Part shown: positions 346 through 9,533 of the stretch, one piece after another
How positions within the stretch are numbered: the stretch's first letter is position 1
How the letters are laid out: each line of letters begins with the position of its first letter
Source: an uncultured Bacteroidia bacterium
GTDB taxonomy: Bacteria; Bacteroidota; Bacteroidia; Bacteroidales; F082
DNA length: 33,983 nt
Reading direction: 5' to 3'
Assembly (NCBI GenBank): GCA_913009755.1
Contig: CAJVWU010000045.1
Coordinates: 1-33,983 of the forward strand
Position numbers and translations under genes: made by a program
Notes under the pieces: generated by a model
The model's input: only the letters and a program-made list of their open reading frames with translations
Databases searched by the model: none
Told to the model about the DNA's origin: nothing

Positions 346-1014
346 TTACAAAACCAGGCTTTTCACAGTTTGGCGCAGTATTTCATTAAGTTTTTTCCGG
401 CGATATTGCATCACCCAGCGGGGATGGGGCAGCGGGACGATTTCGCTGAAAAGTCTTAAATCACTATTGAGCATTTGCAGGTATTCATAATTCTTGCCCT
501 GACCGAGACAATAGCATTTTCTGGAGTTGATGCCCAGTCCCACCTGCTCAACCAGACTTTTGGTGATAAATTTTTTCAGGCGATGCATCAACTCGGTTGA
601 GTCATAATAATTGTAGTTTTTCCCATCCTTTTTAAAACCCAGCGGACTGACGGCCCCAATGTAATAATGGCTGTAAAAATGATCGGGGCCACCCATCATT
701 TTGATCATCCGGTAAATGAAATCGGAGGACAATTCGGGTTTTTTATCAAAACCGTTTTTTATGCCACAATCTTTTTCAAGCCTTTTGGGATCGGTGAACG
801 GGATGCCCGTGACCCCGGCCCCAAAACGTCCTGGATTTATGCCGAGGATCAGCCGCCTGCCGTTGTTGTCGTTGTAATACTTGCTATAAAACCGGCGACA
901 GGCATCCATCACTTCCTGATTCTTATAAGGGTTCATCACTTCAATGCCCTCCGGTAATGGCCCTGTTATTTCCAACGACCGGTATAATTTCATTATTCTG
1001 TCGGAGAATGTCAT
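346..1014 (-). CDS. SMUG1-like uracil-DNA glycosylase family protein (DUF4918-type)
   Basis: Predicted base-excision-repair enzyme that would remove uracil or oxidised pyrimidines from DNA in the cytoplasm. The 222-residue protein has the SMUG-type first motif GINPGRFGAGVTG (about residues 58-70), close to the GMNPGPxGMxQTG seen in SMUG1, and the second motif PLPHPRW with His near 197. Family usage suggests DUF4918, a Bacteroidetes branch of the uracil-DNA glycosylase superfamily. A longer reading frame reaches 1110 but would overlap the end of the radical SAM gene; the ATG at 1014 leaves a 4-base gap to that gene's stop and begins just before the conserved domain, so it is preferred. It is the last gene of the operon starting at 4349. 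Substrate range is not shown by the sequence. Confidence 0.8.
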   Translation of the reverse strand: MTFSDRIMKLYRSLEITGPLPEGIEVMNPYKNQEVMDACRRFYSKYYNDNNGRRLILGINPGRFGAGVTGIPFTDPKRLEKDCGIKNGFDKKPELSSDFIYRMIKMMGGPDHFYSHYYIGAVSPLGFKKDGKNYNYYDSTELMHRLKKFITKSLVEQVGLGINSRKCYCLGQGKNYEYLQMLNSDLRLFSEIVPLPHPRWVMQYRRKKLNEILRQTVKSLVL

Positions 1015-1018
1015 AAGA

Positions 1019-2164
1019 TCAATTCCAAACTCCGGCAATGGGTGTCCCACAGTAACCGCATTTTCCGTCTTTAATGTGGTTCTGCAAGACCTTAAAGCCG
1101 TTTCGTTCAATCAATAGTTTTTTACAGGAAGGGCAATAGGTATTCTGGCCTTCGCTGCCGGGGACATTGCCAACATAAACAAAATTCAACCCGGCATTCA
1201 TCGCCATTTCGCGCGCCTTGTTGAGTGTTTCAACAGGGGTAGGCGGCAGATTGGTGAGTTTGTATGCAGGATGGAAACGGCTGAAATGCAGCGGTGTATT
1301 TTCAAATCCGTTGTCGTACAACCAGTCAACCATCTTTTGGATCATATCCATATCATCTGTCCACGACGGAACAATAAGATTAGTAATTTCAAGCCACACT
1401 CCTTCTTCTTTCATCACTTTAAGGGTGTTCAGCACCGGCTGAAGGGTTCCCGCATTCAGCATTTCATAAGTTTTGTCACTCAGCGATTTCAGGTCAATGT
1501 TGGCTGCATCAAGGTATTTGCAGATGTCCCTCAAGGGCTGCTCGTTAATGTAACCTGCTGAAACAAACACATTTTTTAATCCTTGCAGCCTGGCAATCTT
1601 TGCCGTGTCATAAACATATTCATAAAAAACAATAGGTTCCGAATAAGTATAAGCGATGGACCGGGTTTTGTATTTCAACGCTTCTTCAACCACCTGATCG
1701 GGCATCAGGTCGTAATTGCGTGTTTCGTTTGGACCCACCTGTGAAATTGTATAATTCTGGCAATTAAGGCAGGCCAGATCGCAACCTGCCGTGGCTATTG
1801 AATAAGCCAGTGATTGGGGCAAAAAATGGTTAAGCGGCTTTTTCTCAATGGGGTCAATGTGGATGGCACATGGATTACCGTAAACCATGGTATAAAGTTT
1901 ACCGCCGAAATTCTGGCGTGTCCGGCAATCACCCACTTTCCCTTCCTTAATTTCACAATGTTGCGGACAAAGTTTACATTTGAGGCCTTTGGGCGTGTTG
2001 ATGTAGTAGATGGCCTCCTTGCTCCATTTCCAGGGTTTGTCATTATCAGGTACCATAGTTGTTAATGCTTTTGCCGGCAGGCTTCCTTGCAATGCCAAAG
2101 TTCCTGCACCTGCCAGGCTGAGTTTTAAAAAATCCCGTTTTGTCAACAAAAAATCTTTCATCAT
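1019..2164 (-). CDS. amrS: AmmeMemoRadiSam system radical SAM enzyme AmrS with Tat-like leader
   Basis: Radical S-adenosylmethionine enzyme of the AmmeMemoRadiSam set, whose reaction is unknown. The iron-sulfur motif CxxxCxxC is at Cys128, 132 and 135 (CDLACLNC). Further cysteines lie before it (63, 66, 70, 80) and at the C-terminus (344, 347, 369, 372), the latter arranged like a zinc ribbon. Domain order fits AmrS (PflA-like branch) of about 340-380 residues. The N-terminus has TKRDFLKLSLAGAGTLAL followed by AKA, resembling a Tat signal with Lys-Arg in place of Arg-Arg, which would suit export of a folded Fe-S protein. Two adjacent start codons (2164, 2161) are possible. It sits 31 bases after the membrane protein gene and 4 before the glycosylase gene; the Memo-AMMECR1 partner is divergent at 4411. 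Confidence 0.88.
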   Translation of the reverse strand: MMKDFLLTKRDFLKLSLAGAGTLALQGSLPAKALTTMVPDNDKPWKWSKEAIYYINTPKGLKCKLCPQHCEIKEGKVGDCRTRQNFGGKLYTMVYGNPCAIHIDPIEKKPLNHFLPQSLAYSIATAGCDLACLNCQNYTISQVGPNETRNYDLMPDQVVEEALKYKTRSIAYTYSEPIVFYEYVYDTAKIARLQGLKNVFVSAGYINEQPLRDICKYLDAANIDLKSLSDKTYEMLNAGTLQPVLNTLKVMKEEGVWLEITNLIVPSWTDDMDMIQKMVDWLYDNGFENTPLHFSRFHPAYKLTNLPPTPVETLNKAREMAMNAGLNFVYVGNVPGSEGQNTYCPSCKKLLIERNGFKVLQNHIKDGKCGYCGTPIAGVWN

Positions 2165-2195
2165 CCTTTAAAATTATCCACTTGTTAAATTTGTT

Positions 2196-4349
2196 TTAAA
2201 GATACTTCAATTTATGCTTAACTGTCAAGATAAATAATGTTAAAAAATGCAAACCGGATAAAATAATCATTGTAACGACCAGACCGTAAACCGGAATGAT
2301 ATAAATAGCAACTAGAAGGCTCCCCAGTGCCGAACCGGCCAAATCGGAAGAGTAAACCGAGGCAATGGTCTTCCCCGGTGATTTTTTTATTTTACAAACA
2401 GCAATCCCATATTGATATCCGACCAACAGGGCAATGACAAGCATGGCTGCAGAAAAAACCAGACGTGTGAAGGCATCATCCTGTATAAAACGGGAAACCA
2501 GGAAATAACCGGCCAAAGCCAGGATGAACAATCCCTCGATAAGTTGCACTTTCATCACAAGCTTCATGATGTTGCGGTCAGCACAGTTTTTGCTCAATAA
2601 CGACCCCACGGTGAGCCCGGCCATAAAAATTGTTATGATCACCCCGAGAAAGAGATAGACGTATCCGAAAATCACCTGAAAAGCAATGAGCAGCGAAACC
2701 TCGGCCGCAGCACCGGTAAAACCGCTGGTGAACATGGCCGTGGCAAAAGGTTTTGAAAAAATAAGAAAAAGTATGGCCAGCACAAGACAAAACACCGGGA
2801 TAACCCAGATATTGGTCCCGTAAAAGCTGAGCCAGTGACGGATGTATATAAGATACACCGAGGGTTTGAAATCGTGGTTTAACAAAGTGCTGCCCTTAAA
2901 ATCGGACACGATTTGCTGCGAACGGAATTGAATAAGGGCATCATTCAGATAGGCATCGTTCACATAAGTATTTTTGAGGTGTAGTGCTTTGTAGCGTTGG
3001 GCAAAATCAATGGAAAGCGTACTGTCGGAAGCCAGAAAATAGAGTTTTTTGCCGGGGACAACCAAAACATGCGGAAAAGATTTTTTCAGGCTGTTATATA
3101 CAGATGACTGCAATTCCACTTCATCGTTGCTCATATAGTTTTCGGATGACGTCAGACGGGTGGATATTAATCCGCCGGGGCGGAGAAGACGTTTGAGCCG
3201 GTGATAAAACTCAACCGTAAAAAACCGGTTTAACTCGGCACTGGAAGGGGGCGGCTCGTTAACAAAAATAACATCATATTTTTCGGCGGTCTTTTTTATA
3301 TATATCAACGGGTCTTCGGCATAAGTCCTGATGCGCTTATCGTTGAGGTAAGTCGTGTATTCCCTTGTTATCTTAAATATCGCAGGATTGACTTCAAGAT
3401 AGTCAAGCCTTTTCACATCCTTGTATTTCAGCACTTCCAGGGTAGTACCCGTCATACCTCCCCCGATCAAAAGGACATCTTTGGCATCGGGCCGTTGGAG
3501 CATGGCATAATGGATATCCTCTTCTTTTTGGGCAACATCACCCGTTGAAAAAAGTAAAACGCCGTTCTCAAAAAAGTTCATCTGCCCCCCGGTTTCGGTA
3601 ATGGTCAGGTTGCCATAAGCCGTTTCTTTGGAAAGCAATATCTTTTGGCCGGAAAATAATTTCTCTTTGGCCAGTTTGTCCGGGTCATGTTGATAAATCA
3701 ACAACATCAAAACCAGGGTAATGACAACAAAAACAAAACTTTCGAGAAATTTTCCCTGTCTGAAATCATGTATCCCGAAATATATCAGGTTGATGATCAT
3801 CAGGTATTCCAGGCTTCTGAAATTATTGATCTGCAGATAAAAAATAAAAAACAGGCTGATCAACCCACCGCCCACTAAACTTCCCAGCGATTCAAAAGCA
3901 TAAAAATCCTGCATCTTGCCCCTGCCCTGCCCCGATGTAATGTTGATGATGCTGAAAAGCAGCCCCCCGGTAAAACAAAATGGGAAAAGCAACAATGTGG
4001 AGTAGCCTGCCACTTCAACAAGTGAGGCCATCCTTCCCGGTTCCAGTATGTCATTTCTGAAATATTCGATACTAAAAGCGGCCACCAACGGGTAAATGCT
4101 AATAAAAGTAAACAAAACCCTGAGCAGGTTATCATAATTTTTTCCGGATTTCAGGAACTGACCGATCCATGATCCCAGGGCTGTAATAAGCAACCAGATG
4201 GACAACAACAAACCGATCACCAGTTCGTTGCCACTGAACACCATTAAAAACTCGCGCAACAAAATGATCTGGGCACCAAGCAGAGTAAACCCGAGAAAAA
4301 ATACATCGGCCAGCAACAGGCGGTTACTTATATATTTTTCAGCATCCAT
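2196..4349 (-). CDS. Polytopic membrane protein with spermidine synthase-like domain
   Basis: A 717-residue fusion: about seven hydrophobic segments (residues 11-219), a soluble Rossmann-type domain (about 240-500), then about seven more membrane segments (514-710). The soluble part has LLIGGGMTGTTLEVLK (293-308) and LDYLEVNP (315-322), the nucleotide/SAM-binding features of spermidine synthases, and the FFTVEFY element. Where true aminopropyltransferases have an Asp-x-x-Asp-Pro catalytic stretch this protein reads VNEPPPSS (363-370), so both aspartates are missing. It may therefore bind a SAM-like ligand or polyamine without classical synthase chemistry. It is the first gene of the operon with amrS and the glycosylase, with 61 bases to the divergent Memo-AMMECR1 gene. 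If the N-terminus is inside and the count of seven is right, the soluble domain would face the periplasm; this is uncertain. Confidence 0.8.
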   Translation of the reverse strand: MDAEKYISNRLLLADVFFLGFTLLGAQIILLREFLMVFSGNELVIGLLLSIWLLITALGSWIGQFLKSGKNYDNLLRVLFTFISIYPLVAAFSIEYFRNDILEPGRMASLVEVAGYSTLLLFPFCFTGGLLFSIINITSGQGRGKMQDFYAFESLGSLVGGGLISLFFIFYLQINNFRSLEYLMIINLIYFGIHDFRQGKFLESFVFVVITLVLMLLIYQHDPDKLAKEKLFSGQKILLSKETAYGNLTITETGGQMNFFENGVLLFSTGDVAQKEEDIHYAMLQRPDAKDVLLIGGGMTGTTLEVLKYKDVKRLDYLEVNPAIFKITREYTTYLNDKRIRTYAEDPLIYIKKTAEKYDVIFVNEPPPSSAELNRFFTVEFYHRLKRLLRPGGLISTRLTSSENYMSNDEVELQSSVYNSLKKSFPHVLVVPGKKLYFLASDSTLSIDFAQRYKALHLKNTYVNDAYLNDALIQFRSQQIVSDFKGSTLLNHDFKPSVYLIYIRHWLSFYGTNIWVIPVFCLVLAILFLIFSKPFATAMFTSGFTGAAAEVSLLIAFQVIFGYVYLFLGVIITIFMAGLTVGSLLSKNCADRNIMKLVMKVQLIEGLFILALAGYFLVSRFIQDDAFTRLVFSAAMLVIALLVGYQYGIAVCKIKKSPGKTIASVYSSDLAGSALGSLLVAIYIIPVYGLVVTMIILSGLHFLTLFILTVKHKLKYL

Positions 4350-4353
4350 CGGC

Positions 4354-4384
4354 TTGATTTTTCCTTTAAGTTTCCGTAAATTTG
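4354..4384 (+). promoter_or_regulatory. Candidate Bacteroidetes promoter for the Memo-AMMECR1 gene
   Basis: TTG at 4354-4356 and TAAATTTG at 4377-4384 are 20 bases apart, matching the Bacteroidetes -33/-7 pattern. Transcription would begin near 4390, giving a leader of about 20 bases before the ATG at 4411. It lies in the 61-base divergent intergenic region. Confidence 0.45.
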
Positions 4385-4410
4385 GCTGTTAATTACTGTG
4401 AAGTAAAGTT

Positions 4411-5934
4411 ATGAAAACCATGAATAAAATCAAAATCTTCGGCTTGATAACCCTTATGACATGGTTATCAGTGTTTACCGGCTTCGCTCAAACAAAAATT
4501 GACCGCAAACCGTATGCTGCGGGAAGATTTTATGAAGCCGATTCTGCCAAACTGGTGAACAACCTCGGTGTTTTATTCGGCAAAGCGAAAAGCCATAACC
4601 TTCAGCATATATTGGCGCTTATCTGCCCGCATGCCGGTTATGCCTATTCGGGTGAGGTTGCCGCAACCGCTTATAAACAACTTGAACCCGAAGCCGAATA
4701 TGACAACATCTTTTTAATCGGCTCTTCGCATACGATGTATCTTGACGGAGCTTCGGTTTATTCGGCAGGCAACTATCTCACACCGTTGGGCGAAGTAAAA
4801 GTAAACACGGCCCTTGCAAAGCAACTGATTGCCGAAAACAAATATATCTCTTTTGTGCCGCAGGCACATTCGCACGAACACAGCCTTGAGAATCAGTTGC
4901 CGTTTCTCCAGTATTATCTGAAAAAGCCTTTCAGGATCGTACCGGTTATCATCGGCACTAATGATAAAAAAGAACTGCAATCCCTTGCCAACACGCTGAA
5001 ACCTTATCTCAACGACAAAAACCTTTTTATCATCAGCAGCGATTTTTCCCACTATCCCCGTTACCGCAATGCCCAAAATGCCGACAGCACAACGGCCAGG
5101 GGAATCCTGACAAACAATCCGGAAAAATTTATCGAAGCCCTCCGGCAAAACAGCCGTAAAGATTTTCCGGGCCTGGTGACCAGTGCCTGTGGGCAGTCAT
5201 CCATCCTTACCCTGCTTTACATGACACAAAACATGCCCGATGTTCATTTTGTCCCGCTCAAATACATGAATTCGGGGGATGTTGCACCGGGAGACAAAAG
5301 CCGTGTTGTGGGCTATTTTTCCATTGCCCTGGTTGACCCGAAAATTCAAAGTGCAAATGACTTTCTTACACTTTCCGATAAAAAGGAACTGCTGAAAATT
5401 GCCAGGGCAACCCTTGAGGATTATATCAACAAAAAACAAATACCGGAGATTGATAAAAGCAAGCTGTCCAAAGACCTGATGGTACACAGTGGCGCTTTCG
5501 TAACCTTAAACAAGAACCATAATCTGAGGGGTTGCATTGGCCGGTTTACGGCAGATGAGCCTTTGTATAAGGTAGTACAGCAGATGACCATTGCCGCCGC
5601 CACACAAGACTACCGTTTTCAGGTTGTGAGGCCGTCCGAGTTGCCGTTGATTGACATTGAAATCTCAGTATTAACGCCGATGAAGAAAATCAATTCCATT
5701 GATGAGATCAAACTGGGTCGTGACGGCATTTACATTGTAAAAGGCAATCACAGCGGCACATTTCTGCCACAGGTAGCTACGGAAACGGGGTGGACCAGGA
5801 AAGAGTTCCTCGGCCACTGTGCGCAGGACAAAGCCGGCATAGGCTGGGACGGATGGAAAGATGCGGAGATTTATACATACCAGGCCATTGTGTTCAGTGA
5901 GGATAAGAACATTATACAATCACCAAAAGAATAA
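4411..5934 (+). CDS. Secreted Memo-AMMECR1 fusion (AmmeMemoRadiSam proteins B and A)
   Basis: Two AmmeMemoRadiSam families in one 507-residue chain. Residues 1-26 look like a Sec signal peptide ending GFAQ. Residues about 30-310 are a Memo domain: the putative metal-site residues of human Memo (His49, His81, His192, Cys244) appear as PHAGY His74, SSHT His107, SDFSHY His214 and SAC Cys260; HSHEHSLE (153-160) is also conserved. Residues about 318-495 are an AMMECR1 domain with its signature LRGCIG at 372-377. Neither biochemical role is settled; Memo is related to class III ring-opening dioxygenases and human MEMO1 has been reported to bind metals. The partner amrS is on the opposite strand of the same locus. 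A second ATG at 4420 would also give a usable signal peptide. Confidence 0.9.
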   Translation: MKTMNKIKIFGLITLMTWLSVFTGFAQTKIDRKPYAAGRFYEADSAKLVNNLGVLFGKAKSHNLQHILALICPHAGYAYSGEVAATAYKQLEPEAEYDNIFLIGSSHTMYLDGASVYSAGNYLTPLGEVKVNTALAKQLIAENKYISFVPQAHSHEHSLENQLPFLQYYLKKPFRIVPVIIGTNDKKELQSLANTLKPYLNDKNLFIISSDFSHYPRYRNAQNADSTTARGILTNNPEKFIEALRQNSRKDFPGLVTSACGQSSILTLLYMTQNMPDVHFVPLKYMNSGDVAPGDKSRVVGYFSIALVDPKIQSANDFLTLSDKKELLKIARATLEDYINKKQIPEIDKSKLSKDLMVHSGAFVTLNKNHNLRGCIGRFTADEPLYKVVQQMTIAAATQDYRFQVVRPSELPLIDIEISVLTPMKKINSIDEIKLGRDGIYIVKGNHSGTFLPQVATETGWTRKEFLGHCAQDKAGIGWDGWKDAEIYTYQAIVFSEDKNIIQSPKE

Positions 5935-5938
5935 AGAA

Positions 5939-6376
5939 ATGAGAACCTATATTTTATTATTGTCCCTAATGATAGCCATATCATGCTCTAAAGAAAATCA
6001 GCAAGAAAATCAAAAAGAATTAGAAATTAATATTACTAAAACAGAATGGTACACTTCAATTTCAGACCGGGGATTTGGGGAAGTGTATTTAAACATTGAA
6101 GGAAACACAAATGCAGAGTTGGTAACGATTGACACTTATGGGGATGGACTGGCCGGATGTTATGTAGTCAAACTGGATAAAAACAAGAATTTTTCAGAAA
6201 AAATAATGATATTATTTCATCCTAACCCGGACACCCTGCCAAAAAAATATCAAACGTATGTGAATGCTTATGAGAAATCTGAATCACCTGATGTTATAGA
6301 TTGCAGAACAGGAACAGGTAATAAAATCAGAAAGTTAATTGAAAGTGGTTACGTGACCTTTAAACAAAGGGATTAA
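5939..6376 (+). CDS. Small predicted lipoprotein, function unknown
   Basis: A 145-residue protein not recognised as a known family. The first residues MRTYILLLSLMIAISC form a short hydrophobic leader ending in a lipobox-like AISC, so Cys16 would be lipidated and the protein anchored in an envelope membrane. The mature part begins with a Lys/Glu/Gln/Asn-rich tether and continues as a mixed beta domain with two further cysteines. The ATG at 5939 is chosen over an upstream in-frame start at 5861 because it begins the signal peptide and follows the Memo-AMMECR1 stop by 4 bases; the upstream start would overlap that gene by 74 bases. Tight spacing suggests co-transcription. It is noticeably more AT-rich than the gene before it. 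Confidence 0.7.
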   Translation: MRTYILLLSLMIAISCSKENQQENQKELEINITKTEWYTSISDRGFGEVYLNIEGNTNAELVTIDTYGDGLAGCYVVKLDKNKNFSEKIMILFHPNPDTLPKKYQTYVNAYEKSESPDVIDCRTGTGNKIRKLIESGYVTFKQRD

Positions 6377-6434: not shown

Positions 6435-9400
6435 TCAGGATTTCTTGTCTTTTTGATTGGCAATAAAATCGGAAGGGGTCATGCCAAACTCGCGATGAAA
6501 GCATCTGGCAAAATAGGACAGGCTTTTAAATCCGAATTCATAGGCTGTTTCGGTAACATTCCCTTCCTCCCTTTTCAGGTATTCGGCTGCATTTTTCAGG
6601 CGGATACTGCGTATAAAATGACCGGCTGATTCCCCGGTCAGTGCTTTGATTTTTCGGTGCAACTGAACCCGGCTCATGGCCATCTCGCGGGCAAATGATT
6701 CAACACTGAATTCCGAATCGGAGATATATTTCATGACAACGGACAAAGCTTTCTGTAAAAACTGCCGGTCAATGGAAACCGGTTTCTCCGGGTCGGCTTT
6801 GGTAAACTCAACGCCCAGGGACTTTAGTAATTGCTCCCTTAATTTTTTCCGTTGTTCTATCAGGTTTTTTATGCGTATTTTCAATTCCCTGGCATTGAAA
6901 GGTTTTTCAAGGAATTCATCGGCTCCGGTTTCAAGGCCTTCAATTTTGTATTCCATAGAACTTCGGGCGGTAAGCAGGATAACCGGGATATGACTGGTCC
7001 GTTCATCGGTTTTTATCTGTCTGGACAGCTCGTTTCCGTCCATTCTGGGCATCATCACATCGCTAATGATCAGGTCAGGAACCTGGCTGATGGCTTTGTC
7101 CAGTCCTTTCACTCCGTCTGCGGCTTCAATAACTTTATAAGGAGGATCAACACAACTTCGGATATAAGTCCGCATATCCTTGTTGTCCTCAACAATCAGG
7201 ATAAGGGGCGTTGCCTTTGGTTTATGTCCCCCTTCACCACCGGTCAGGTTTTCAATGTCCGTTTCCGGTTCATCCTGTATCTGTTCATCATCCTGATCCT
7301 CAATAATTTCATCTGATTTAAAATGTTTTTTACCCAACGGCAGGGAAACGGTAAATATTGATCCTTTCCCCTCTTCACTTTCAACTTTTATGGACCCGTG
7401 GTGAAGATCAATAAGTTCTTTGGTTAAAGCCAGGCCTATGCCTGTGCCTTCCACATTCCGTTTCAGCACATCGTCCACCTGGTAAAACCTGTCAAATATA
7501 TGGTTTTGTTTTTCTTTTGCAATTCCGATTCCTGTATCCCTGACACTTATGGTCACCTCACCTTCTCCCGGTACCCCGCTGATGGATTCATCCTTGTTTG
7601 CTCCCAGACTGACTGTTATGCTACCTCCAGCGTTGGTAAACTTAAAGGCATTACTGAGCAGGTTTCCAATAATGTTTTCCATTTTTTCCTTGTCGAAGTA
7701 AATCCACAGTTTGATTACAGAGGAAGTAAAACAGAGTTTTATTTCCCGTTCTTCAGCCAATGAATGGAAAGTTTGAACAAAATGCCGGGTAAACTCCACA
7801 ATTTCTCCTTTTTTAGCTTTTATCGGAATTTTTCCCGATTCAAGCTTATAGAGGTTTAAAAGTTCGTTGATCATGGCATGCAGCCGGCGGGCATTTCTGT
7901 CCATTATTTCAAGTTCTTTCCGGATTTCCTCATCATGGGTTTTCCGGATAAGCTTGTCCAGCGGGCCGATGATGAGCGTCAAAGGGGTCCGCAACTCATG
8001 AGAAACATTGGAAAAAAACTGTTCCTTCGAGCGTTCCGATTCTTCAGCCCTGTTTTTCTCAAATTCAATGATCCTGTTTTTTTCTTCCAGTTCCCGGTTT
8101 GTTTTCCTGATATAATTTAACCGCCAGAAAAGGGCGGCAGCTACAATCAGGATCAGGAGACCAAAAGAAAGGATGATGTATTCCCGGTTTCTGGCTTCGT
8201 TTATTTTTTTTTGATAAGCCATTTCTGTTTTCAATTTGTCCTGTACCATGGCCAGGCTGTCGGCCAGATGACTTTTTTCGTATTCATACTGCAAAGAGAG
8301 GCGGGTAACCTTTTTAAAGTTTTCTCTTTTTTCCAGTGAATCGCGGGTTGTATAATATTCTTCCTGGAAACGGAAAGCTTCTTCAGGATTATCCAGTGAT
8401 TTATAGGCTGTCGTTAAACATTTGCAACTGTTGCGGGTTTCTTCCAGATAATTGGATTCCTTTGCCAGGTGATACGCTTTGGAGCACCAATTTTTTGCTT
8501 CATGGGGCCTGCCCATCTGATTATAAATGCTCCCGATATCGTTATAGGCTGCCGTTATCCCTTTTTTATTTCCCAGTTCATTGTTCAGCTTCAGGCTACG
8601 ATGAAAATAATTCAAGGCAGTATCATTTTCCCCCTTCAGACTGTAAATATTTCCTATGTTCCTGTATATGCTTGCGATTTGATCTTTTTCTTTGATGGCA
8701 GCAGCCAGTAGCAACCCTTTATTATAATAATCAAGCGCCTTGTCATATTCTTCCATATCCTTGTAGATTATACCTAAATTATTATAGGTGCGTGAAAGCA
8801 AGCGTTTGTTACCAAGCTTCTTATAATACACCATGCTCCGGGTAAGATAATCAAGTGAATTCTTCAGGTCGCCCTGATCTAGGTAAACCAGCCCGATATT
8901 TTGAATTGTTCGTGCAATCCGGGCATCGTCATGCAATTTCAGGTTAATGTCAAGGTTTTTTTGCAAATACTCAAGGGCAGCCGGTATATTGCCCTGAATA
9001 ATATAAATAACACCAATATTATTATAAATGAGGGCTTTCCCCAGCGTGTCGTTGATACCTTCTCTTATTTCCAGGCTTTTCCGGTTGGCTTTAAGGGCTT
9101 TGTCATAATCCCCCTGGTTTCTGTAAATCAGGGCCATATTGCTATAAAAGTTAGCCTGCTCATTTAGAAAGCCGGCCTGCTCGGCGATTTTCAGCCCTTT
9201 ATTATACAGAGCCATGGCCTCATCAAGGTTGCCTTTTATATCCTTTGTAATGCCCTTGGCTTTATAGCTCCAGCATTGCATATACAGGTTATTGCTTTTC
9301 AAAGCCTGGTCATACAATTTTCCGGCAAGGTTATATCCTGAATCGGGGTTCTGAAAAACCATTTTCCATGTTAAATCTTTCAGGGCATTCATCCTGATCG

Positions 9401-9533
9401 TGTCAGGTTGGGAAGGATTATTCCAGACATTCCACAGGCTGTCGGTATTAATGGAAAAAACAAATGGAAGATTTAAAAAACAAAAAACAAGCAGCAGGAA
9501 AAATTTTCTCGATAAGGATACCGGATGAATCAT
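6435..9533 (-). CDS. Hybrid two-component sensor/regulator with periplasmic TPRs, histidine kinase, receiver and AraC domains
   Basis: One 1032-residue chain combines sensor, kinase, receiver and transcription factor. A signal-anchor-like leader (about 10-28) is followed by about seven tetratricopeptide repeats (roughly 90-370), a coiled region, one membrane helix (452-472), a HisKA domain with SHELRTP and His512, an ATPase domain with N-box NLLSNAFKF (624-632), DTGIG (666-670) and GTGIG (696-700), an acidic linker, a receiver domain with acidic pocket VEDN, phospho-acceptor Asp825 and Lys877, and a C-terminal AraC helix-turn-helix pair (about 940-1027). The arrangement puts the TPRs in the periplasm as sensor, unlike polysaccharide-utilisation HTCS proteins that use beta-propellers. 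No SusC/SusD genes are in the window, so its target is unknown. It lies 107 bases after the aminotransferase. Confidence 0.93.
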   Translation of the reverse strand: MIHPVSLSRKFFLLLVFCFLNLPFVFSINTDSLWNVWNNPSQPDTIRMNALKDLTWKMVFQNPDSGYNLAGKLYDQALKSNNLYMQCWSYKAKGITKDIKGNLDEAMALYNKGLKIAEQAGFLNEQANFYSNMALIYRNQGDYDKALKANRKSLEIREGINDTLGKALIYNNIGVIYIIQGNIPAALEYLQKNLDINLKLHDDARIARTIQNIGLVYLDQGDLKNSLDYLTRSMVYYKKLGNKRLLSRTYNNLGIIYKDMEEYDKALDYYNKGLLLAAAIKEKDQIASIYRNIGNIYSLKGENDTALNYFHRSLKLNNELGNKKGITAAYNDIGSIYNQMGRPHEAKNWCSKAYHLAKESNYLEETRNSCKCLTTAYKSLDNPEEAFRFQEEYYTTRDSLEKRENFKKVTRLSLQYEYEKSHLADSLAMVQDKLKTEMAYQKKINEARNREYIILSFGLLILIVAAALFWRLNYIRKTNRELEEKNRIIEFEKNRAEESERSKEQFFSNVSHELRTPLTLIIGPLDKLIRKTHDEEIRKELEIMDRNARRLHAMINELLNLYKLESGKIPIKAKKGEIVEFTRHFVQTFHSLAEEREIKLCFTSSVIKLWIYFDKEKMENIIGNLLSNAFKFTNAGGSITVSLGANKDESISGVPGEGEVTISVRDTGIGIAKEKQNHIFDRFYQVDDVLKRNVEGTGIGLALTKELIDLHHGSIKVESEEGKGSIFTVSLPLGKKHFKSDEIIEDQDDEQIQDEPETDIENLTGGEGGHKPKATPLILIVEDNKDMRTYIRSCVDPPYKVIEAADGVKGLDKAISQVPDLIISDVMMPRMDGNELSRQIKTDERTSHIPVILLTARSSMEYKIEGLETGADEFLEKPFNARELKIRIKNLIEQRKKLREQLLKSLGVEFTKADPEKPVSIDRQFLQKALSVVMKYISDSEFSVESFAREMAMSRVQLHRKIKALTGESAGHFIRSIRLKNAAEYLKREEGNVTETAYEFGFKSLSYFARCFHREFGMTPSDFIANQKDKKS

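Follow-up and report, generated by a model that had tools for sequence, protein, structure and literature searches.

An apparently exported AmmeMemoRadiSam system with a predicted fourteen-helix membrane partner in an uncultured Bacteroidales bacterium

Introduction

AmmeMemoRadiSam systems combine AmrS, a radical S-adenosylmethionine (SAM) enzyme (TIGR04337), with Memo (TIGR04336) and AMMECR1 (TIGR04335), and the described form is cytosolic. Radical SAM enzymes are regarded as cytoplasmic because SAM and low-potential electrons are located there. We analyzed a locus of this type in a stretch of 33,983 nucleotides, here called the window, from an uncultured Bacteroidia bacterium of the order Bacteroidales (assembly GCA_913009755.1, contig CAJVWU010000045.1), in which amrS, a gene for a Memo-AMMECR1 fusion and a gene for a large membrane protein (MEM) lie together. 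The window trio shares all three families, the cluster cysteines and the LRGCIG motif of AMMECR1 with the cytosolic systems, to which it adds leaders on AmrS and on Memo-AMMECR1, MEM as a partner, an AmrS clade of its own and a frequent fusion of Memo to AMMECR1. The fusion is not unique to this form, since L006 and L007 (our numbers for sampled loci begin with L) are leaderless fusions. AmrS scored 366.4 bits against a cut-off of 220, with the match confined to residues 61 to 380, and its residues 1 to 60, which start with MMKDFLLTKRDFLKLSLAGAG, are extra to the family; Memo-AMMECR1 scored 238.5 bits against 26 for TIGR04336 and 171.5 bits against 99 for TIGR04335. The trio is thus an AmmeMemoRadiSam member by all three cut-offs and a distinct variant by its predicted localization, clade and partner.

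The closest solved fold of the AmrS core is that of pyruvate formate-lyase activating enzyme (3cb8, 3c8f; TM-score by target 0.82, sequence E value 2.6e-9). Identity in the fold alignment is 16 to 17%, and AmrS adds N-terminal and C-terminal cysteine sets and the leader. MEM resembles the fused MFS/spermidine synthases (NF037959) and the 7TM-spermidine synthases of PspA operons (PMC11237479) in having N-terminal helices followed by a SpeE-like domain; compared to these, it adds a second set of seven helices, lacks the gate aspartate and is tied to exported AmrS, and it scored 29.6 against the NF037959 cut-off of 40. The two halves of MEM also share the helix arrangement of MFS and POT transporters (SV2A, 9okg; OCTN2, 9pdq; PepTSo, 4uvm), from which it differs by an identity of only 9 to 13% and by an intervening domain of some 270 residues. 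No biochemical activity of the AmrS, Memo and AMMECR1 trio was found in our literature search. A full-text search likewise found no description of exported AmrS or of MEM; the work of Burroughs and co-workers (2019) on the dioxygenase/Memo superfamily, cited in PMC7159879, is probably the most relevant earlier paper and may mention part of the system.

Results

Leader-bearing AmrS proteins and their association with MEM. The Tat (twin-arginine translocation)-like leader claimed for AmrS in the original prediction is present as the motif TKRDFLK followed by a hydrophobic stretch, and it has counterparts in relatives. The motif differs from the usual one in that lysine replaces the first arginine (KR, not RR). 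This replacement is shared by most Bacteroidota-titled members of the AmrS clade described below, and RR motifs, for example SRRDFLK and TRREFVK, occur in many other members. A full-length MEM was found in 7 of 296 sampled genomes of the window's phylum, and AmrS adjoined it in all 7. Each of these MEM-linked AmrS proteins carried a Tat-like leader (KR or RR) compared to 0 of the 65 other AmrS proteins above the cut-off in that phylum (p about 7e-10, Fisher's test, uncorrected for kinship). The latter count needs readable N-termini and so omits L028, at a contig edge, and L152, with an unreadable motif; L019 and L054, which are one gene, were taken once, the pieces of the G097 gene on contigs C75 and C5 were treated as one, and L168 and L169, both leaderless, were left out because they fell under the cut-off. 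The window genome itself yielded a single AmrS match and also encodes TatC.

Named genomes were then scanned with the MEM alignment, and the best 80 of at least 529 relatives were kept as loci. The titles of these records include Bacteroidales, Ignavibacteriales, Deltaproteobacteria, Opitutia, Pirellulales, Acidobacteria, Omnitrophota and DPANN archaea. The same MEM was sampled twice in three cases (L045 and L103, L116 and L178, L129 and L177). AmrS, Memo or AMMECR1 was encoded within 5 kb of MEM in 67 of the 80 loci, and all three were in 40, so that the trio proposed earlier as conserved does recur, together with the leader, across many loci. An AmrS tree was built from cores only, excluding the leader; its 255 rows, in which some genes were duplicated, were reduced to 179 sequences of less than 78% identity. 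Both a leader and a MEM gene within 5 kb were found for 59 of these, neither for 95, a leader only for 21 and MEM only for 4. A single clade of 84 sequences (FastTree support 83), which spans several phyla by record title, held 79 of the 80 leader-bearing AmrS proteins, and MEM lay within 5 kb in 59 of its 84 members versus 4 of the 95 sequences outside it. The sole leader outside the clade, L182, is a weak match in an overlong open reading frame (ORF). Five members of the clade were scored as leaderless: L261, in which GRRGFLK can be seen by eye; L124, with a Sec-like leader; L323, which begins close to the end of a contig; and two proteins without any leader, L267 and L290. A second, weakly AmrS-like protein with the Tat motif TRRDFIK is encoded beside MEM at L116:1374-2456 and L178:3285-4367, which are the same contig.

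The association was also found where the genes are apart. In a second phylum, that of G296 (Desulfobacterales-titled; 148 genomes), genomes with an unlinked MEM were examined for leader-bearing AmrS elsewhere, which was present, among the matches listed, in at least 20 of 22 such genomes and in 3 of 7 further ones. The resulting 23 of 29 compares to 1 of 20 MEM-less genomes, drawn from the full list (p about 2e-7).

Leaders of Memo-AMMECR1 and related partners. The Sec signal peptide foreseen for Memo-AMMECR1 is borne out by a hydrophobic leader before residue 32, judged by eye in the window copy, and relatives were scored by a hydropathy test. At MEM loci such a leader was found on 55 of the 58 distinct fusions that were scored (56 of 59 rows before the duplicate protein of L045 and L103 was counted once). 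Those that did not pass were L047, which has a wrong start, and L064 and L111, both narrowly under the threshold. Among single Memo proteins, 3 of the 4 scored at MEM loci had a leader, and of 9 scored Memo proteins away from these loci none did. Fourteen proteins, of which 5 come from MEM loci (2 fused, 3 single) and 9, all single, from elsewhere, were passed over by the test and lie outside these counts. A lipobox-like cysteine occurs in 24 of the 56 leader-bearing rows. Unfused AMMECR1 proteins at the MEM loci L088, L120, L185, L188 and L201 start with a leader-like or anchor segment, that of L118 does not, and those of L090, L101 and L184 are cut or too short to judge. Memo residues H74 and H107 are invariant and C260 is kept in at least 90% of 50 aligned fusions, 2 of them from MEM-less loci, as is every position of LRGCIG. 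H74 and H107 align with histidines of MEMO1, whose iron ligands are H49, H81 and C244 (PMC11081632), and C260 presumably corresponds to the MEMO1 cysteine.

AmrS as an enzyme. The CX3CX2C motif, the N-terminal CX2CX3CX9C set, K226 and E259 (window numbering) were each found in all 84 members of the leader-bearing clade, and the C-terminal cysteine pairs (four cysteines) in 83 to 84. Some positions are less strict in this clade: at 224, 70 of its 84 members have D and 13 have N, and outside the clade D occurs in 94 of 95. R296 is specific to the clade (84 of 84; alanine in 59 of the 95 others), as are C99 (70 of 84) and H102 (66 of 84), and C99 and R296 are possible substrate-site changes of exported AmrS. 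In the AlphaFold2 (AF2) model of AmrS, which has a predicted local distance difference test (pLDDT) score of 94.2, a separate leader helix and a loose linker precede the core. The core takes the SAM-barrel fold, which together with CX3CX2C is characteristic of a radical SAM enzyme, and retention of the cluster cysteines and of most residues conserved in the cytosolic enzymes suggests that catalysis is under selection. No glycyl radical enzyme was found among six window proteins scanned with Pfam.

Two exported AmrS proteins (L046:9839-11080 and L047:10068-11312) carry one more CXXCH near the N-terminus, after the leader and ahead of the core, possibly a c-type heme site for electron entry. As a general route of entry the motif was rejected: among the AmrS proteins listed it is N-terminal only in these two, and in the others it belongs to a C-terminal cysteine pair, which cytosolic AmrS has too.

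Fold, topology and pocket of MEM. The AF2 model of MEM (pLDDT 92.0, predicted template modeling score 0.91) consists of seven helices, a domain and seven helices. The domain matches the polyamine aminopropyltransferase 1uir (Z 29.3, root mean square deviation 2.8, 278 residues), and Pfam places Spermine_synth at residues 279 to 399; apart from this domain, NCBIfam and Pfam gave no family above cut-off for the full protein. The helices match MFS proteins (SV2A, Z 25.5; OCTN2, 24.6; PepTSo, 22.8; over 340 to 376 residues), and MEM thus belongs to the MFS fold by its model. POT-type MFS proteins have 14 helices, with an extra hairpin at the same place as the MEM domain, between helices 7 and 8. 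The topology was predicted from lysine plus arginine counts in 69 MEM rows (68 distinct), leaving out the N-terminus and the SpeE loop. With the N-terminus inside, the mean loop count was 18.8 inside versus 4.9 outside, and the inside count was higher in 69 of 69 rows, and again in 69 of 69 for each half alone. Because both halves follow the positive-inside rule, the loop between helices 7 and 8, and hence the domain, would lie outside, a placement that we regard as quite likely.

Within the domain, E276, D346, N374, R375 and F381 were found in 69 of 69 rows and E319 in 65. In the alignment with SpeE the gate aspartate, that of the GGGDG motif, falls at position 299, where none of the 69 rows has Asp or Glu. 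The second catalytic aspartate aligns to position 364 (N in 29, D in 27) and the third to position 367 (D in 41, E in 13, P in 8, including the window copy). Nucleotide-contact acids are thus kept and the gate aspartate is absent, so that the pocket looks to be of the nucleotide type and a standard aminopropyltransferase is unlikely. A true spermidine synthase was considered and rejected, with a TIGR00417 score of 76 against 249.55, no acid at 299 and proline at 367.

Other MEM-like proteins were also seen. At L179, L180, L181 and L195 the MEM relatives are 755 to 772 amino acids long and are possibly a distinct subgroup. L039, L040 and L041 encode proteins of about 500 amino acids that join hydrophobic helices at the N-terminus to a SpeE domain whose motifs look intact; this domain would also lie outside if there are seven helices with the N-terminus inside, and a neighbor in L040 has an NRRHFLK leader and looks flavoprotein-like by eye.

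Neighbors of the MEM loci. No fourth conserved partner emerged when 779 ORFs of the 80 loci were clustered (blastp, half-length overlap), as no family outside the trio was found in more than 5 loci. The notable cluster outside the trio was TatC (PF00902, 178 to 199 bits), encoded a few genes from MEM and AmrS in four loci of archaeal-titled metagenome-assembled genomes (L081, L083, L091 and L099). L091 also has S6e-like and aIF2-gamma-like neighbors that look archaeal by eye, and for this reason is probably no binning error. A Pfam scan of 88 of 101 close codirectional neighbors, the other 13 being duplicates, near-repeats and one very long protein, found no common redox partner, with Fer4_5 in 3 of the 88. 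Fer4_5 membrane proteins near MEM or AmrS, which are candidate electron donors, are encoded at L086:16726-17394 and L091:15617-16330, both within the scanned set, and at L067:2550-3308, outside it. L099 has a cytochrome b561-like neighbor below the Pfam cut-off.

Layout of the locus. The features of the locus are given in Table 1. MEM and amrS lie in the same direction with a gap of 31 bp and look like one transcription unit, from which Memo-AMMECR1 is transcribed divergently. The earlier description of the two soluble-protein genes as facing each other around the membrane protein gene therefore holds for the central position of MEM and fails for the orientation. Within the divergent gap, TAAATTTG resembles the consensus of the Bacteroidota -7 promoter element. 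Directly after amrS lies a gene for a uracil-DNA glycosylase superfamily protein (346-1110, minus strand), whose longest ORF extends 92 bp into amrS, although its true start is probably internal. A small putative lipoprotein (5939-6376, plus strand; MRTYILLLSLMIAISCSKEN...) directly follows Memo-AMMECR1, its longer ORF having no Pfam match. At 6435-9533 (minus strand) a large hybrid two-component regulator joins tetratricopeptide repeats, a histidine kinase, a receiver and an AraC-type helix-turn-helix in one protein.

Table 1. Features of the AmrS, MEM and Memo-AMMECR1 locus (window coordinates)
Feature	Coordinates	Strand	Basis
amrS: AmrS, radical SAM enzyme, 381 aa, member of the exported clade	1019..2164	-	TIGR04337; clade position; AF2 fold
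CX3CX2C radical SAM cluster motif of AmrS (C128, C132, C135)	1760..1783	-	84/84 in exported clade
Tat-like leader of AmrS, residues 1-33 (TKRDFLK motif and hydrophobic stretch)	2066..2164	-	sequence; matching leaders in relatives
MEM, 717 aa: MFS-type protein of 14 helices interrupted by a spermidine-synthase-like domain	2196..4349	-	Pfam; AF2; topology; fold match
MEM C-terminal seven transmembrane helices, residues 516-716 (first, 516-531, short)	2202..2804	-	AF2 helices; topology
MEM spermidine-synthase-like domain, about residues 232-500, predicted extracytoplasmic	2850..3656	-	PDB profile match 3anx/1uir; Z 29.3; positive-inside 69/69
MEM N-terminal seven transmembrane helices, residues 2-221	3687..4346	-	AF2 helices; topology
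Divergent intergenic region, 61 bp, MEM-AmrS versus Memo-AMMECR1	4350..4410	.	sequence
Memo-AMMECR1 fusion, 507 aa, Sec-type leader	4411..5934	+	TIGR04336, TIGR04335, PF01875, PF01871; leaders in relatives
Memo-AMMECR1 signal peptide of Sec type (about residues 1-27), lipobox Cys absent from the window copy	4411..4491	+	sequence
Memo domain, residues 32-306	4504..5328	+	family profile; conservation
AMMECR1 domain, residues 326-495, with LRGCIG motif	5386..5895	+	family profile; conservation

Discussion

Taken together, the leader-bearing AmrS clade, the leaders of its partners, the co-occurrence with MEM and TatC at four archaeal loci agree with the export of both soluble proteins that had been proposed, and we consider it very probable, from sequence, that AmrS and its partner are exported. 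The leaders and the co-occurrence are read from the sequences themselves, and the topology and folds are predictions. From these we infer transport, SAM binding, reduction and the substrate, and we lean, with modest confidence, toward an extracytoplasmic AmmeMemoRadiSam system in which MEM passes or holds a SAM-type nucleotide. The Tat pathway carries folded, cofactor-loaded proteins, and AmrS would be folded and loaded with its iron-sulfur clusters in the cytoplasm and then exported by this route. Memo-AMMECR1 would be exported unfolded via Sec, and in many relatives it looks like a lipoprotein or a protein with a helical membrane anchor. Since one protein would cross folded and the other unfolded, they would meet only outside. 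MEM, with its 14-helix MFS-type body, would present its nucleotide pocket, of the spermidine-synthase kind, to this outer side as well. Most likely it would either carry a SAM-type nucleotide (SAM, or the products 5'-deoxyadenosine or methylthioadenosine) across the membrane or hold it. The trio would then perform a radical SAM-dependent modification of an extracytoplasmic substrate, in the periplasm or, in archaea, beyond the membrane; an outside substrate best explains why three proteins that are leaderless together elsewhere have moved out jointly.

The part played by MEM is less secure than the export. As the only common partner found, with an MFS body and an outward SAM-type pocket, it fits a SAM carrier or a remover of the product, and the earlier suggestion that it supplies the nucleotide or handles the product is plausible, in a sharper form with the spermidine-synthase-like domain predicted outside the cytoplasm. 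That MEM handles a SAM-type ligand at all is, in our estimate, slightly short of an even chance, and that it supplies SAM is more tentative still. Equally tentative is the fullest version of this scheme, in which the entire radical SAM pathway operates outside, MEM is a transporter of SAM or SAM products with its outward domain as a reservoir, and the system was gained about once and spread to many phyla and to DPANN. The likeness of the AmrS core to pyruvate formate-lyase activase and the conservation of LRGCIG make the LRGCIG loop of AMMECR1 a candidate target of AmrS, for a peptide radical or a modification, though an improbable one.

Several observations weigh against an exported system served by MEM. 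To our knowledge, there is no precedent for SAM and a low-potential donor outside the cytoplasm. The AmrS leader of the window itself has KR and not RR, and the leader test is loose, as 29 of 360 neighboring ORFs also pass it. Linkage to MEM is incomplete: at 13 of the 80 loci none of the three partners was seen in the 5 kb around MEM, several of these loci being on short contigs or almost without flanks, and in the second phylum AmrS or AMMECR1 lies that close for only 28 of the 60 long MEM matches (one locus there, L236, gave no MEM ORF). Six of the 29 genomes with unlinked MEM have no leader-bearing AmrS, 3 of these 6 having AmrS copies at contig edges; G324 holds a leader-bearing AmrS and no MEM match at 1e-30; and the AmrS proteins near MEM in L179, L180, L181 and L195 are leaderless. 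A test of phylogenetically independent pairs had no power (4 pairs, p 0.5). Acquisition of the leader on about one occasion would lead to this outcome, and the co-occurrence counts are accordingly not independent events. Finally, given that the gate aspartate of SpeE is absent, the MEM pocket may bind another ligand or nothing.

The looseness of the leader test would suit leaders that are chance hydrophobic N-termini and a linkage that is local, an explanation that is hardly credible, as it is contradicted by the grouping of 79 of the 80 leaders in a single clade and by the 0 of 65 in the window-phylum control. If instead the AmrS leader stays uncleaved and anchors an enzyme that acts at the membrane, perhaps still on its cytoplasmic face, then the KR motif of the window and of most Bacteroidota-titled members and the Sec-like leader of L124 would be accounted for. 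RR motifs in the same clade, Sec or lipoprotein leaders on the partners and TatC neighbors all speak against such an anchor, and positive residues ahead of the hydrophobic stretch favor an inside N-terminus and thus an enzyme outside; we find this alternative quite improbable. Only a little less so is an exported AmrS that makes one turnover with SAM bound at exit, or performs no SAM chemistry and acts as an iron-sulfur or redox partner of Memo-AMMECR1. Such an AmrS would suit an outside for which we know of no SAM supply and a Tat pathway that delivers loaded proteins, but it leaves unexplained the retained cluster cysteines and conserved residues and the co-occurrence of the membrane partner.

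The strongest competitor concerns MEM, which might be an enzyme whose outer SpeE-like domain transfers a group (for example aminopropyl or aminocarboxypropyl) onto the product of AmrS and Memo-AMMECR1, or a flippase whose MFS part brings the substrate, for example a lipid-linked molecule, to the outer leaflet. The SpeE fold, the invariant pocket residues and the MFS-type fold are all compatible with this. According to PMC11237479, 7TM-spermidine synthases occur in PspA-linked operons, for which aminopropylation was proposed. With the GGGDG aspartate gone, the other catalytic aspartate positions variable and the SpeE equivalogs missed by far, we judge this alternative unlikely, and continue to prefer an extracytoplasmic system in which MEM passes or holds a SAM-type nucleotide.

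If this reading is true, SAM or a SAM equivalent and reducing power would reach the outside of the cytoplasm, in an exported design that occurs across many bacterial groups and some archaea. It would also locate the substrate of a widespread uncharacterized system, and would bear on the human-linked domains MEMO1 and AMMECR1.

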